A stretch of DNA of 64,000 nucleotides from Methanosarcina sp. MTP4 (lineage in GTDB: Archaea > Halobacteriota > Methanosarcinia > Methanosarcinales > Methanosarcinaceae): assembly GCF_000970045.1 (NCBI RefSeq), contig NZ_CP009505.1:3248808-3312807 (forward strand), in the 5' to 3' direction. Position 1 is the stretch's first letter. Each line of letters begins with the position of its first letter. The notes beneath the pieces were generated by a model. The model made no database searches. It was not told where the DNA came from and was given only the letters and a program-made list of their open reading frames with translations. Made by a program: the position numbers and the translations under genes. Positions 15,983 to 41,893 of this stretch are shown one piece after another.

Positions 15983-16851
15983 GAGCTTATCCGAAAAGTC
16001 CCGCAGCTCTGAAAGTAATCCAGGAGCATGCGAAATGAAGCATAGCAAAGTAATTCTCAAGCTTTTTTTCCCATCGAATAAGCAGTCTTCTGAATCTATT
16101 CAGCCAAGAATGCGTTCTTTCTACAACCCACCTTCTTGCCTTATGACCTGGTATCTTTTTTTCTATTTTTTCTTCTCCACGTCTTGGGATATGGGCAGTA
16201 TATCCATATTCTTCAACCAATTTTCTGATATCAGGAAAATCATATCCCTTATCCATGCATATATTCTGAATTACTTCATGTGAAGGTCTTTCAATAATTA
16301 TGTCATCAAGAGTCTCTTTTACAAGCATTTTATCGTGCCGATTGGCTCCATCCACGGCAACAGAAGGTGGTATGCCTTTACCCTCAGTTAACATACTCCT
16401 TTTTGTTCCTTTTTTGCCACGGTCAGTGGGGTTAGCTCCGGTTCCATCTCCACCCAATGGTGCTTTTGTCATAGCTCCATCCATTGCTTGCCACTCCCAC
16501 TCTAATCCTTTTTTGTTATCATACTCCATCAGACCAGCTTGCCACATTGTCTCAAATAATCCTGCCCTTTGCCATTCCTGAAATCTGTCATGTACAGTGC
16601 TTGAAGCTCCATAACATCTTGGCAAGGCTTTCCATTGACAGCCAGTGCGAAGGAGATAATAAATACCGTTCATTATTTTCCTATCATCCTCTCGCGGCCT
16701 TCCAAGCTTCTTCTTCGGTTTTGGAATTGGTAGTAAACACTTGATTACATTCCAGAATTCGTCTGAGATCTCGTAGTCGTGTCCTGTTTTTCGTTTTGTC
16801 ACTAATAATCATTACCATTCATAGCAGTATTTTTACTTTTCGGATAGGCTC
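15983..16851 (-). mobile_element. Intact IS5-family insertion sequence
   Basis: 869 bp with 17-bp terminal repeats: left GAGCTTATCCGAAAAGT (15983-15999) and right complement GAGCCTATCCGAAAAGT (16835-16851), differing at one base. Flanked by a 3-bp target duplication TTA (15980-15982 and 16852-16854). Removing the element and one TTA restores the IS256 transposase frame, which proves the boundaries. Confidence 0.95.
15987..16802 (-). CDS. IS5-family (IS427-like) transposase
   Basis: 271 residues, intact. Starts at GTG 16802 and its TAA stop lies inside the left terminal repeat. Catalytic DDE residues can be placed in WQAMDGAMTKAPLGG (about residue 107), CMDKGYDFPDI (about 182) and WVVERTHSWLNRFRR (about 227). 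The N-terminal DUF4096-like region reads ISDEFWNVIKCLLPIPKPKK. Likely active or recently active, since the ends and target repeat are preserved. Confidence 0.92.
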   Translation of the reverse strand: MTKRKTGHDYEISDEFWNVIKCLLPIPKPKKKLGRPREDDRKIMNGIYYLLRTGCQWKALPRCYGASSTVHDRFQEWQRAGLFETMWQAGLMEYDNKKGLEWEWQAMDGAMTKAPLGGDGTGANPTDRGKKGTKRSMLTEGKGIPPSVAVDGANRHDKMLVKETLDDIIIERPSHEVIQNICMDKGYDFPDIRKLVEEYGYTAHIPRRGEEKIEKKIPGHKARRWVVERTHSWLNRFRRLLIRWEKKLENYFAMLHFACSWITFRAAGLFG

Positions 16852-36969: not shown

Positions 36970-37265
36970 TTTTTCCTATCACATCTAACCCCGTACGATT
37001 GAGATAAAAACCCTAAAAACGGAAAAACGAAATCTTCCGATCACGCCTAACCCCATAGGATTGTGAGAAAACCCTAAAAACGGAAAAACAGAAAAACGGA
37101 AAAACGGAAAAACGGAAAAACGGAAAAACGAAATCTTCCGATCACGCCTAACCCCATAGGATTGTGAGAAAAACCTAAAAACGGAAAAACCTAAAAACGG
37201 AAAAACGGAAAAACGGAAAAACAGAAAAACGGAAAAACAGAAAAACGGAAAAACAGAAAAACGAA
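36970..37265. repeat. Composite minisatellite: GGAAAAAC runs within a ~70-110 bp unit
   Basis: Three successive copies of a unit beginning TTCCGATCACGCCTAACCCCATAGGATTGTGAGAAAA (first copy diverged, TTCCTATCACATCTAACCCCGTACGATTGAGATAAAA), each followed by CCTAAAAACGG and a variable number of 8-bp GAAAAACG/GAAAAACA steps; the number rises from about two to ten. Two levels of repeat expansion are nested. Confidence 0.85.
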
Positions 37266-37440
37266 AATTGAGTGTCTTAAACATTCAATATAAATTATAC
37301 AGATATAATTTTACTTTAGGCAAGATAATACTCAAAAAGCCAGATAATGTCTACATTTTTCGTTTATACATTTCACTTTTCATAATATGACTCTTCGCTA
37401 TTTTTTATGGGTTGAAAATAATTGCTTCGTCAGAAAGTAG

Positions 37441-37781: not shown

Positions 37782-39029
37782 TTACACCCCTGTGCTATAT
37801 CTAAGGATTGCAGCAATTCCGCCAAAAGCTATCATAAGTTGAGAGCCTTCGTCGAAATCTGTTGATATAAAAGCAATCCTTACATTGCCTTTATCAGCGA
37901 GTTCTGAGAATTCACCAACGATATCAATAACATCCGTGACTTCAAGTGCAGAACCGCATTCAGGACAATTTCCAGCCGCAGGAACGGCTTCACTGTTTTT
38001 CCATTTTCTTGTCCGTTTATACTCATATCCGCAAACACTGCATTTGAGAGTTACTCTTTCAGCCCGAAGGTCTTCAGAAAGTAAAAGCACATCAACTGCC
38101 TTTATTTCAAGATTCGCCCGCAAATTGTCTTCTCCATAGGATACTTTGCCGGACTCAGTAGCGATTTCTTTAAAAAATATTTCCATATCTTTCTTTTGCT
38201 TAATTAAGTCAATACCCTGGAGAATTTCCTCTGCGGCATTTATTAACTCAGAAAAACCGGATTCATCCGTATACCCCGTATCGAACAATCCAAGAACCTT
38301 TTTCTGAAGCTCATAATGTAGAAATTCGCCTTCACTGAACTCTTCTTTAGCTGGAGAATGCCCTCCTATAAGAATGCCTTTAAGTTCAGCTGGCTCTAGT
38401 TCAAGGAATGCCTCACTTGCAGCATCCCCTATTCTTTTGTAGAAATCATGAATAGCAATGCGTCTGAGCTGTTCAAACCGATGGGCACTCTGCCCTCCTT
38501 TTCTTTGTTTGCCAGGGACAGTAGAGTGGAGATGTTTAATAACTTCAATTTGCTTACCTACAAGCATTCCGATTGTAGCTTCTCTGAAATCAAGAAGTAT
38601 AAGCCCATAAGTACTGCACTCTTTGACCATTTCCTCAAGAGGCTCAAGATAAAAAACGGAATCACAGTGATATATGTAATGTGAAACAGGTTCCGGAGGA
38701 ATAAGAACTTCGTTTTCCAGGCCTGTCCTGTTAGCTCCGGTATCGACAGTTCCTGTAAAGTAAACTATCCCGTTTTCCGGTATTTTGTTAAGATGTCTTA
38801 ACTTTGCCATCAAAGAATCCAGTGCTCCCCGTACGTTATTGCTGGTAAGTTTAGACTTAATGTTCAAAGCCTGCTCATGTTCTTCTCTCAAATGATTTGC
38901 AACATCTGAAATCTGTTTATCAGAAGGAACATAAAGGGAAATTAATTCTGTGCCCCTTCCACTTTTACTTCTTAGAGTTTCAAGCTTCTTTTTAAATACA
39001 TATTTTTCATATGTACAGTATTCAGCCAT
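37782..39029 (-). CDS. Peptide chain release factor aRF1 (paralogue-like)
   Basis: 415 residues, the usual aRF1 length. Stop-codon recognition sites are present: NIKS (about residue 57) and YHCDSVF (YxCxxxF, about 118). The catalytic KQRKGGQSAHRFEQLR with GGQ is near residue 180, and a C-terminal zinc-binding region has CSVCGYEYKRT and CPECG. The residue before NIKS is Leu (QALNIKS) where most archaeal factors have Ser (ASNIKS). Methanosarcina genomes are known to hold two aRF1 genes; the altered motif suggests this is the divergent one. No translation gene sits beside it. Confidence 0.85.
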   Translation of the reverse strand: MAEYCTYEKYVFKKKLETLRSKSGRGTELISLYVPSDKQISDVANHLREEHEQALNIKSKLTSNNVRGALDSLMAKLRHLNKIPENGIVYFTGTVDTGANRTGLENEVLIPPEPVSHYIYHCDSVFYLEPLEEMVKECSTYGLILLDFREATIGMLVGKQIEVIKHLHSTVPGKQRKGGQSAHRFEQLRRIAIHDFYKRIGDAASEAFLELEPAELKGILIGGHSPAKEEFSEGEFLHYELQKKVLGLFDTGYTDESGFSELINAAEEILQGIDLIKQKKDMEIFFKEIATESGKVSYGEDNLRANLEIKAVDVLLLSEDLRAERVTLKCSVCGYEYKRTRKWKNSEAVPAAGNCPECGSALEVTDVIDIVGEFSELADKGNVRIAFISTDFDEGSQLMIAFGGIAAILRYSTGV

Positions 39030-39292
39030 CCAAGCTTCCTCCTTCTCTCATATAAAAACAGTTGAAGGACCTAAAAAATGACATAAAACTACTATATTCA
39101 TTTATGCTTTATCTTTTAAAAAACGTTTTTTAATTTCCATTCAAAAACTTCCCTCCACGCCGCATACTTACAAAGTGAACAGATATATGGCAGTCACTGG
39201 CAAAAAAAGAGGAAAAGTAGAATTGGCACTAATATAAAAAACGCTACAGATGGAACACTGTTAGAAACACCTATAAGAGACAGTCTTAACTA
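39030..39292. other. Upstream region of the aRF1 gene
   Basis: Contains the probable promoter of the minus-strand aRF1 gene: a CATTTATGCTTTATCTTTTAA stretch around 39098-39118. Ends at the terminal repeat of the element starting at 39293. The bases AAGAGACAGTCTTAAC just outside the element resemble MITE A/B ends. Confidence 0.35.
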
Positions 39293-39425
39293 GAGCCTAT
39301 CCGATAATATTGCTATATACAGCAACTTTAATATTCCTTTGATCATTGCTGGTGTTGATTATTTCAGATCCAAAAATCCTATACAATCATTTTTAAATAT
39401 TAAATATTTTACAAACCATAAAAAA

Positions 39426-40274
39426 TTAAAGGTAATATAGTTCTGTACCAACCGGATACATATATGAAAGCGTTGAACTTTCTGGATCAGTTGAAACTAA
39501 ATATTTTGCATTTGGCTTGTGATACGATGATTTGTTAGGGTATTTTACTTCAAAAAAGATATCATAATAAACTCGTATGTTATTGTTAAACACTTCTTGA
39601 CAATCCCAAGAATCCCATGGAGATTTGAGATAGTCTATTACAGATTTAACAATTGAATAATCATAAGTTGAGTCCTTAAACGCCACAGCATACTTATGTC
39701 TTGGATTTGGGCACAATAAAACGTGATCTTCTTCAACATCATCATAATATCTAAAGCATAACCTACCATTATAAATTTCTCCAACCTCATGTCCACAGTA
39801 GTTTAGCGGAGTAATTTTCTGGTTGCAAATAGAGCAGAAAATCTTTTTTGCTCTAAAAGAAGGACTCAGGAAAAGCACATATGGAAATATTTTTTGAAAC
39901 TCTTTTACCTGCAAGCGAATGTGTTCAATTCCAAAATCTTTGTTTTTGTCTAAAAAATGTCTATCAAGATATCCAATTGAAGTCTCACATTCGATTAGTC
40001 GACACCATCCTTTATAGAAGTAGTCTTCATGCATATAATTGAAAGCAGTCATAAAGCAATCTTGAATATGTCCTATTGCTTCTAAACACCATGCCGCTTT
40101 TGAAATTTCATGATTATTAGAAACATTGGCTTGCTCTATTATTTTGAATATATTTTTGTAAAAGGTTATTGGCAGAATATCTTTATTTCTACTGCGGTAT
40201 TTTTTTAACAGTTTTCTACTTTCATCAAACAAATCATCCTTTAAAATTAGGTAGGAGATTTCTTGATCTGTCAA
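39426..40274 (-). CDS. Unknown protein with Cys/His zinc-binding motif
   Basis: 282 residues, not recognised. The first ~130 residues look helical and hydrophilic (KLLKKYRSRNKDILPITFYK). In the middle (about residues 147-175) is CSICNQKITPLNYCGHEVGE followed by IYNGRLC, a C-x2-C-x8-C-G-H-x9-C arrangement fit for one zinc ion, then a mixed region with LLCPNPRHKYAV. No membrane segment or signal peptide. Its ATG overlaps the stop of the upstream gene by four bases (ATGA), so the two are co-translated. It lies within the TIR-bounded element. Function not inferable; a cargo or defence-type role is only a guess. Confidence 0.75.
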   Translation of the reverse strand: MTDQEISYLILKDDLFDESRKLLKKYRSRNKDILPITFYKNIFKIIEQANVSNNHEISKAAWCLEAIGHIQDCFMTAFNYMHEDYFYKGWCRLIECETSIGYLDRHFLDKNKDFGIEHIRLQVKEFQKIFPYVLFLSPSFRAKKIFCSICNQKITPLNYCGHEVGEIYNGRLCFRYYDDVEEDHVLLCPNPRHKYAVAFKDSTYDYSIVKSVIDYLKSPWDSWDCQEVFNNNIRVYYDIFFEVKYPNKSSYHKPNAKYLVSTDPESSTLSYMYPVGTELYYL

Positions 40275-40795
40275 TTTTCTTCACTTCCATTAGTGAGTTC
40301 GACAGCACCATATTCTAAAAGATTTAACATTACTTTTTCATATGTTTCTGCAGGACCGCAGTATTTGTAATTAATTGTATGATCTTTTTTATTTATCAAA
40401 ATTTCACTTACAACTTCATTATTTTTTGAGATACACTTATCATAGATATAATTCGAAATTAAATTTATGATGACTGGAAAATAAATTGATTGTACAATAA
40501 TGGTCGCAAGTACTATTGTATCACTATATTGAGTGAGTTCTTGATATTCGTCATCAATGACAGCAATTCCTACCTTAAAGTCAGCAGAAGAGTTACGTTG
40601 TAAATATTGATAAAAATCAATCGTTCCCTGTGGAAAACAAGTATCTTTACTGTAAAATTCACTAGATGATATTACCAAAGCGTTATATGAAGATATTTTA
40701 TTTTGAATGTCGGGATGTTCAGAATAAGCGCATATAATAGAGTCAAATGTTGTACTAACTGCTCTCTTATCTACAATTTTATTTTTGCTACTCAT
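40271..40795 (-). CDS. Unknown protein with one hydrophobic segment
   Basis: 174 residues, not recognised. N-terminal ~100 residues are hydrophilic (SSSEFYSKDTCFPQGTIDFY). A hydrophobic stretch TIVLATIIVQSIYFPVIINL (about residues 93-112) could be a membrane helix, followed by a short charged domain with INKKDHTINYKYCGPAETYE. First gene of a two-gene unit with the zinc-motif protein; four-base overlap. The region upstream (40796-41170) is AT-rich and would hold the promoter. Presence in a possible mobile unit makes the pair a candidate passenger module. Confidence 0.7.
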   Translation of the reverse strand: MSSKNKIVDKRAVSTTFDSIICAYSEHPDIQNKISSYNALVISSSEFYSKDTCFPQGTIDFYQYLQRNSSADFKVGIAVIDDEYQELTQYSDTIVLATIIVQSIYFPVIINLISNYIYDKCISKNNEVVSEILINKKDHTINYKYCGPAETYEKVMLNLLEYGAVELTNGSEEN

Positions 40796-41338
40796 TAGAA
40801 TCTGCCCATAAATAATTTTTAATTCAGTATTATGTTTAAACTTCTATATTTATTTTCATTTCATTTTGTCTAAGATATGCGAATGTTTAGTGTAAATTTA
40901 CCTAAAATTTTCAATAAAGATCGATTTACGAAATATGTAATGAACGTCTGTCTATCGTCTATCTCCCTAAGTTTAGTAATCTCTACATATTAGCTTTGTC
41001 TTCACTGAAAAAAAGAAGAAAGATAGGCTCTAAACCATCGGGAAAATCGATAACGACATTATTAGAACTTTGTTTTAACATCAAGTGTTTACACCATTTG
41101 TAGAGATTGTCTATCTATGCACATTGTATATTATTAGATATAGAGGGAACAATACTATTAGGATAGGCTCTATTTGAGACATGACACAAAAGATAAGAAA
41201 TTACAACCAGGATAGGAAATGAGAAATAATTTTGGGAGAAATAAGTTTTTATCAGTATGTTAAGCCCTCATAAAATAGGGCAATTGATAGCTATTATATA
41301 CTGAATATCTCTTTTTTTCGTTCAATTGGGTGAGTGCT
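40796..41338. other. Upstream region of the element genes and YkgJ-like gene
   Basis: AT-rich, no gene. Contains the inner TIR-like sequence (41021-41030), the right terminal repeat of the element (41150-41170) and, beyond it, the promoter region of the plus-strand gene at 41339, with TATATACT at 41295-41302. Confidence 0.45.
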
Positions 41339-41893
41339 ATGGATAGAAGACAACGTTTCAAAAAATATGACTGGTTAATCTCAAAAACTCAAAGCATACT
41401 TAAACATTATAGCTGTCCTGAATCATGCAATGCGAGTTGCTGCAAAAATCATATTATTGATTTTCATAGAAAAGAATATGAGAAAATATTAAAAAATGTA
41501 GATAAAGAAAGTGTGAATATTTTAAAATCGAATGCGGTAAAATCAGAGTTGAAAGGATGTTATAAAGCAATAAATGCCGTCGAACAATGCCCATTATTGA
41601 TAAACTCAAAATGCAGAATATACGATAATAGGCCGGAAGCCTGTAGAACTTTTCCTTTTGTAATTTATCCGGATGCGGAAATCGGATTTGGTTTAACGTT
41701 GTTATTGTGTCCGATGTCTGTTAACATAGTTCGAGATTATGCACAGTGGTATAAGGCGGTAAACTCAATAATGCATAGTCAATTAACTGACTTGTACGAA
41801 CAGTATAGAAACATAGATAAAAATAATGATTTTTGTATTGAAATGAAAGAGCAGAATTTAGATTCGTTCATAGAATTTCTTGAAAGGAAGTAA
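41339..41893 (+). CDS. YkgJ-family cysteine cluster protein
   Basis: 184 residues. Cysteine cluster of the CxCC type: CPESCNASCCKN (about residues 25-36), and CPLLINSKCRIYDNRPEACRTFPF (about 80-103), ending with a further Cys in LLLCPMS. This is the pattern of the zinc/iron-chelating domain of YkgJ (UPF0153) proteins, whose role is not settled but may be metal binding. GGGTGAG just before the ATG at 41339 makes it the start; an in-frame GTG at 41330 is inside the ribosome site. Located directly outside the TIR-bounded element. Confidence 0.75.
   Translation: MDRRQRFKKYDWLISKTQSILKHYSCPESCNASCCKNHIIDFHRKEYEKILKNVDKESVNILKSNAVKSELKGCYKAINAVEQCPLLINSKCRIYDNRPEACRTFPFVIYPDAEIGFGLTLLLCPMSVNIVRDYAQWYKAVNSIMHSQLTDLYEQYRNIDKNNDFCIEMKEQNLDSFIEFLERK

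Follow-up and report, generated by a model that had tools for sequence, protein, structure and literature searches.

A mobile gene pair with a defence-like context occupies a variable slot in Methanosarcina sp. MTP4

Between two conserved genes of Methanosarcina sp. MTP4 lie two small overlapping genes, A and B, that raise two questions: how did they get there, and what do they do? A sequence-only reading of 64,000 nucleotides of this genome (the window; all coordinates without another source refer to it) proposed that the genes form a passenger module (for defence, a toxin, or another accessory function), framed by inverted ends and mobilised in trans by an IS5-family transposase. We compared the locus (Table 1) with related genomes, plasmids, and viruses. 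It appears that the transposon was illusory, while the guess of an accessory function has fared better.

Table 1. Features of the A/B locus, in window coordinates
Feature	Coordinates	Strand	Basis
Left flanking gene, release-factor-like, eRF1 domains 1-3	37782..39029	-	Pfam eRF1_1/2/3; synteny in relatives
Dispersed repeat core	39148..39207	+	nhmmer E 4.9e-14; tail on to about 39292 (tail alignment)
Segment missing from same-genus genome G006	39208..41008	.	BLAST of window region vs G006-G008
Left arm of inverted repeat (left "end" plus 10 bp outside)	39283..39312	+	part of repeat tail
Gene A, second of pair, 282 aa	39426..40274	-	ORF; AlphaFold pLDDT 77.7, pTM 0.76; alignments
Zinc hairpin of A, residues 137-200 (S137, C147xxC150, C160xH162, YNG, C173, P191)	39675..39866	-	invariant residues; hhalign; PHROG
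Gene B, first of pair, 174 aa	40271..40795	-	ORF; AlphaFold pLDDT 86.6, pTM 0.82
Predicted membrane helix of B, residues 95-113, VLATIIVQSIYFPVIINLI	40457..40513	-	hydropathy
Right arm of inverted repeat	41161..41180	-	found also in three gene-less relatives
Right flanking gene, CxxCxxCC (putative zinc/iron-chelating) family	41330..41893	+	Pfam PF03692; synteny in relatives

The pattern that suggested a transposon is real. The inverted ends, GAGCCTATCCGATAATATTG at 39293 and GAGCCTATCCTAATAGTATTG (reverse complement) ending at 41170, do lie beside TA and form the best inverted repeat in the region, and A and B, which overlap by 4 nt, are the only genes between them. The idea that the 1878-bp unit was moved by the genome's IS5-family transposase, via these terminal inverted repeats (TIRs), is favoured by the AT-richness of the insert and by a match to the intact IS5-like copy at 15983-16851, whose ends agree with the first 12 bases of one repeat and the first 10 of the other. 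However, the inverted symmetry goes on outside the TA: the arms GTCTTAACTAGAGCCTATCC / GTCTCAAATAGAGCCTATCC (written without a break, GTCTTAACTA / GTCTCAAATA) extend outward past it by another 10 bp, with 90% agreement over 20 nt. If these were the ends of a transposon that had landed in unrelated DNA, the symmetry should stop at the TA.

The relatives of MTP4 argue against a transposon as well. Both flanking genes are conserved among them, and three other genomes of the same genus (G006, G007, and G008) retain both flanks and lack A and B. The homology breaks at 39207|41009 in G006, at 39218|41002 in G008 (which lacks 39219-41001), and at 39203|41138 in G007, where the matches are limited to the repeat and the right side, and not at 39293|41170. 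So this is a presence/absence polymorphism with a real extent of about 39208-41008. None of the three gene-less genomes has a clean empty site with a single TA, and all three retain the right "end": GAGCCTATCC is exact in G006, while G007 and G008 read GAGTCTATCC. (Within the window, GAGCCTATCC with at most one mismatch occurs 6 times, 3 of them exact, against 3.1 expected, which is not clearly above chance.) The left "end" turns up in a different setting. The stretch 39281-39334, which holds it, matches a sequence in another genome, G074, with 80% identity over 54 bp (E 5e-6). That sequence continues a dispersed repeat, which in G074 runs on through the left "end" and about 20 bp more, and no A/B genes are present there. 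Parts of 41037-41166 also recur beside other repeat copies. Because the matches to both "ends" recur at repeat copies, we take the "ends" to be locally shared pieces of repeat and flank.

Also, the 1878-bp unit has one match only in its own genome, and A/B homologues elsewhere lack the terminal repeats: none of the homologous loci that we scanned for the 10-bp end motif contains it. The sequence-only reading had itself named this outcome as one that would refute it. Given the empty sites, the symmetry past the TA, and the repeat tail in G074, we rejected a TIR-bounded, TA-flanked passenger element. With the break points, the retained right "end", and the left "end" in a repeat tail, mobilisation by an IS5-family transposase is unsupported, and we consider it very improbable. 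The lesson is that matching inverted ends and a flanking TA do not suffice for calling a transposon; here, the empty sites in relatives overturned the call.

Instead, the pair occupies a variable slot between two conserved genes, and the left edge of the slot is the dispersed repeat: the left break in the gene-less relatives coincides with the end of its core. The core is 64 bp with two nested inverted stems, and many copies, including the one in the window, carry a tail of about 85 bp, so that core and tail together often come to about 150 bp. The repeat is present in 31 of 112 Methanosarcinaceae genomes, confined to 2 of 14 genera (copies in L080-L143). A genome usually has several copies, frequently in the same orientation and 1-6 kb apart among variable genes, and the genes between copies include toxin-antitoxin modules, transporters, and the genes that flank A/B. 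In G008, the slot is filled by another insert, of 1.5 kb, which is itself flanked by two repeat copies (L142, G008:C44, 1498-2959). This insert encodes a 151-aa probable membrane protein.

The repeat may serve as a site of recombination or mark the boundaries of cassettes. A hairpin of two stems that we defined by hand is mostly paired across copies, with few compensatory changes; RNAalifold returned no structure for 82 copies, and Rfam gave nothing relevant for the A/B locus or for the repeat copies. As to reading the arrays as integrons, the repeat presumably lacks the attC core GTTRRRY. Our simplest guess is that A and B entered or left by recombination at repeat copies rather than by transposition of the IS5 type, and the pair may have been lost in the relatives instead of gained in MTP4. 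Further to the left in the window, a Phe/Ser/Val-rich open frame of low complexity (FRFSVFPF..., 36985-37284) is unlikely to be a gene and is better seen as simple sequence.

If the pair did not travel as an IS5 passenger, where else is it found? A search of four related genomes with A from the window gave three real pairs and one spurious match (L006 in G059, which we discarded as a homologue of A). Further homologues are on plasmids of Haloterrigena, Rhizobium, and Pseudoalteromonas and in the Halorubrum provirus Humcor2. Homologues are also present in 214 plasmid records, mostly conjugative enterobacterial plasmids, and at 23 genuine loci in genomes of Pseudomonadota, Bacillota, Bacteroidota, Ignavibacteriota, and an uncultured archaeon. 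Scans of viral contigs, with A from Humcor2 and with a four-row alignment, gave no matches. Wherever there was upstream sequence, B lies directly upstream of A, overlapping it or within about 20 bp, and a profile search confirmed this order in 14 further loci, including archaeal and viral ones. In the window, the TTG start codon of A overlaps the TGA stop codon of B. So the order and spacing of the pair are conserved across Bacteria, Archaea, and their viruses. The archaeal matches to B are weak (E from 1e-9 to 1e-3), so the unity of B across the two domains rests on position together with these scores.

In a phylogenetic tree, A from the window falls among bacterial sequences, where its partner is the uncultured archaeon (98/90), while the other A genes of the family lie elsewhere. 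Given this placement, it is likely that A was acquired horizontally.

What kinds of proteins are these? B was predicted to have a membrane helix, and the prediction held up: there is a single strongly hydrophobic helix, and all 20 of the aligned B proteins reach a hydropathy of 1.5-2.4 over 19 residues at this position. In the AlphaFold model, which is confident over the core, a mixed alpha/beta N-terminal part is followed by the hydrophobic helix and then by a C-terminal beta-hairpin and helix. EACC1 (Pfam PF19953), a small component of bacterial conflict systems, seems to share with B its small size, a hydrophobic helix in the middle, and a hairpin followed by a helix at the C-terminus. We rejected EACC1 as the family of B, as none of 20 B proteins had a Pfam match at E<=5. 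A search for EACC1 in the same genome was uninformative, as control genomes gave no match either.

A, whose AlphaFold model is likewise confident over its core, has a helical N-terminal domain (residues 3-129), a two-strand zinc hairpin, and a variable C-terminus. The Cys/His zinc site that was noticed at the outset (C147, C150, C160, H162, and C173) is invariant in 20 relatives, as are S137, Y168, G170, and P191. Most relatives of A also have a C-terminal SEC-C zinc motif, which A in the window lacks. With A having no SEC-C tail, the copy of the pair in the window may be a divergent or decaying variant.

The hairpin segment of A, S137-K200, aligns with phage proteins of the head maturation protease type over 63 columns (hhalign probability 97.5%, E 8.4e-12), with a shared pattern of a serine followed by CxxC...CxH...YNGxxC...P. 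The aligned phage proteins are encoded right after portal genes and belong to PHROG 16951, and one of them also matches PHROG 18299 (head maturation protease). Relatives of A match both of these PHROGs. In a search of viral folds with the model of A, the best matches were phage proteins, one of them named as a prohead protease (E 0.33; nothing reached E<=0.001). The serine that is aligned to the phage proteases and is invariant in A would be a putative protease nucleophile. We did not accept L044-L046, L147, or L148 as homologues of A: these are phage head genes and have the zinc segment alone in common with it. In L044 and L148, members of PHROG 16951, which is listed as having an unknown function, are encoded directly after portal genes. 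PHROG 16951 is probably a zinc-containing head maturation protease.

Otherwise, the sequence-only reading was right that neither protein can be assigned to a family: no match in Pfam, NCBIfam, PADLOC, the PDB, or fold searches covers A or B. Searches of Pfam, NCBIfam, PADLOC, and PHROGs picked up the zinc segment of A, a weak match of one B protein to a MazF-like PHROG (E 0.019), and nothing else. PADLOC 2.0.0 had no match for A or B from the window or from five other pairs, and fold searches of both models in the PDB gave nothing at E<=0.001. So the pair is uncatalogued in the profile libraries that we searched. We also did not find it described in the literature that we could cover, which excluded preprints and most subscription papers.

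The carriers of the pair are diverse. In Humcor2, which is a haloarchaeal pleolipovirus provirus that has been induced (PMC7911831), the pair lies on the opposite strand between the structural genes and rep. In a prophage, its immediate neighbours are the genes for the integrase and for CI/CII control. It is also on small plasmids and on conjugative plasmids. In enterobacteria, the pair travels as cargo in a 5.32-kb unit that also holds TPR and FRG genes and bears an ISLad2-type transposase, which belongs to the IS1202 family (PMC10132070). This unit has the same ends in five independent places, with imperfect TIRs (TGTTAGAACC.../TGTCAAAGC...) and, in at least two places, 5-bp repeats (TATAA and TAAGT). 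The IS1202-type transposon with the pair (L016, L018, L020, and L041-L043) is on about 200 sequenced enterobacterial plasmids, and the B-A part of it is in 24 of 5,426 complete E. coli genomes. The earlier guess of an accessory or defence passenger is thus well supported by comparison: plasmids, a provirus, prophages, and one genuine transposon all carry the pair, and known defence genes adjoin it.

Could the pair serve the mobile elements themselves, for example by superinfection exclusion or anti-defence? Its presence in Humcor2 and in prophages is what one would expect, but the pair is often found in ordinary chromosomal defence neighbourhoods too, with no phage present, and superinfection exclusion, by its mechanism, counts as defence anyway. 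We are strongly doubtful of this explanation. Another idea is that the pair responds to stress or metals, with A sensing a metal or redox state and acting on its membrane partner, and that the defence neighbours merely reflect residence in islands. A has Cys-rich zinc sites, many relatives have SEC-C tails, and the enterobacterial copies adjoin copper, arsenic, and mercury genes. On the other hand, the enterobacterial pair sits in its own transposon, which is found without the metal genes too, most other copies have no obvious metal genes nearby, and carriage by a provirus and prophages suits defence better. So a metal response seems improbable.

Known defence genes recur beside the pair. Two loci (L026 and L039) have a GajA-like OLD nuclease and a UvrD helicase (Gabija), and others have GmrSD (L037), DarT with a macro-domain-like gene (DarTG; L033), a KAP NTPase (L035), or a reverse transcriptase (L019). 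AbiEii and ABC-3C are near other copies. At four loci (L021, L028, L029, and L032), the neighbours are mainly housekeeping genes. In an Ignavibacteria bin (L022, 10848-13116), a class III nucleotide cyclase and a probable DNA methyltransferase come after B-A, all in one direction; it is possible that these four genes are an extended operon. The PADLOC models for AAA proteins and helicases are broad, and we judged the rate of defence neighbours without a matched control set. If Gabija is found in about one of ten genomes, its occurrence near 2 of about 20 independent loci would be very unlikely to be chance. The pair thus looks like a defence module by its context, being a conserved operon with mobile carriage and defence-gene neighbours (whose rate has no matched control).

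On balance, we lean slightly towards the view that A and B are one mobile two-gene host-defence-like module, with A as a soluble sensor and B as a membrane effector. We infer defence, with sensing by A and effector action by B, and the two roles are read from the anatomy of the proteins only. B and then A would be transcribed together, with coupled translation. A would sense an invading virus and, once triggered, would cause the membrane-bound B to stop growth or to disturb the membrane, following the logic of abortive infection.

Alternatively, the pair could be a toxin-antitoxin or addiction module, in which B is a membrane toxin and A is a zinc antitoxin, that stabilises plasmids and islands. 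Two small co-translated genes with the membrane protein first, carriage by plasmids and prophages, and the presence of other toxin-antitoxin modules nearby are all in keeping with this. Nevertheless, A is larger than B and is built like a sensor domain, not like a DNA-binding antitoxin, and the pair has no match to toxin-antitoxin families aside from the weak MazF-like match of one B. We think that this is unlikely, although many abortive systems are toxin-antitoxin-like and the two readings could overlap.

If the pair is a defence module, what might it sense? The hairpin that A shares with phage proteases leads to the idea that A is a decoy: a sensor with a helical scaffold that displays the Ser/zinc hairpin of the phage head maturation protease. 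When a tailed virus assembles its capsid, the intermediates would bind A as they would bind the viral protease, and the binding would release or activate B and arrest the cell before virions form. One two-gene logic would then be at work in both Bacteria and Archaea. We see the decoy as a long shot. Still, the zinc hairpin provides a concrete and testable idea of what the pair senses. And if the defence reading is true, then the pair is an uncatalogued family, neither of whose proteins has a solved or catalogued relative over its length, with members in methanogens, a haloarchaeal provirus, and prophages as well as on about 200 sequenced enterobacterial plasmids.

Finally, we compare the pair to systems that are already known. 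The enterobacterial copies, and only these, are surrounded by the transposase, TIRs, and 5-bp repeats of an IS1202-family transporter IS (tIS; ISLad2 and ISKpn21), while the copy in the window has neither a transposase nor such ends. The phage head maturation protease has the serine and the zinc segment in common with A, but the protease domain that precedes them is missing from A, which has its helical N-terminal domain instead, and A always follows B, outside of any cluster of head genes. Abortive-infection systems that consist of a sensor and a membrane effector, encoded by two genes, are a known functional class. The pair resembles no catalogued system in sequence or fold, but it has what this class has: a compact operon, a soluble protein and a membrane protein with a single helix, and a home in mobile elements and defence islands.
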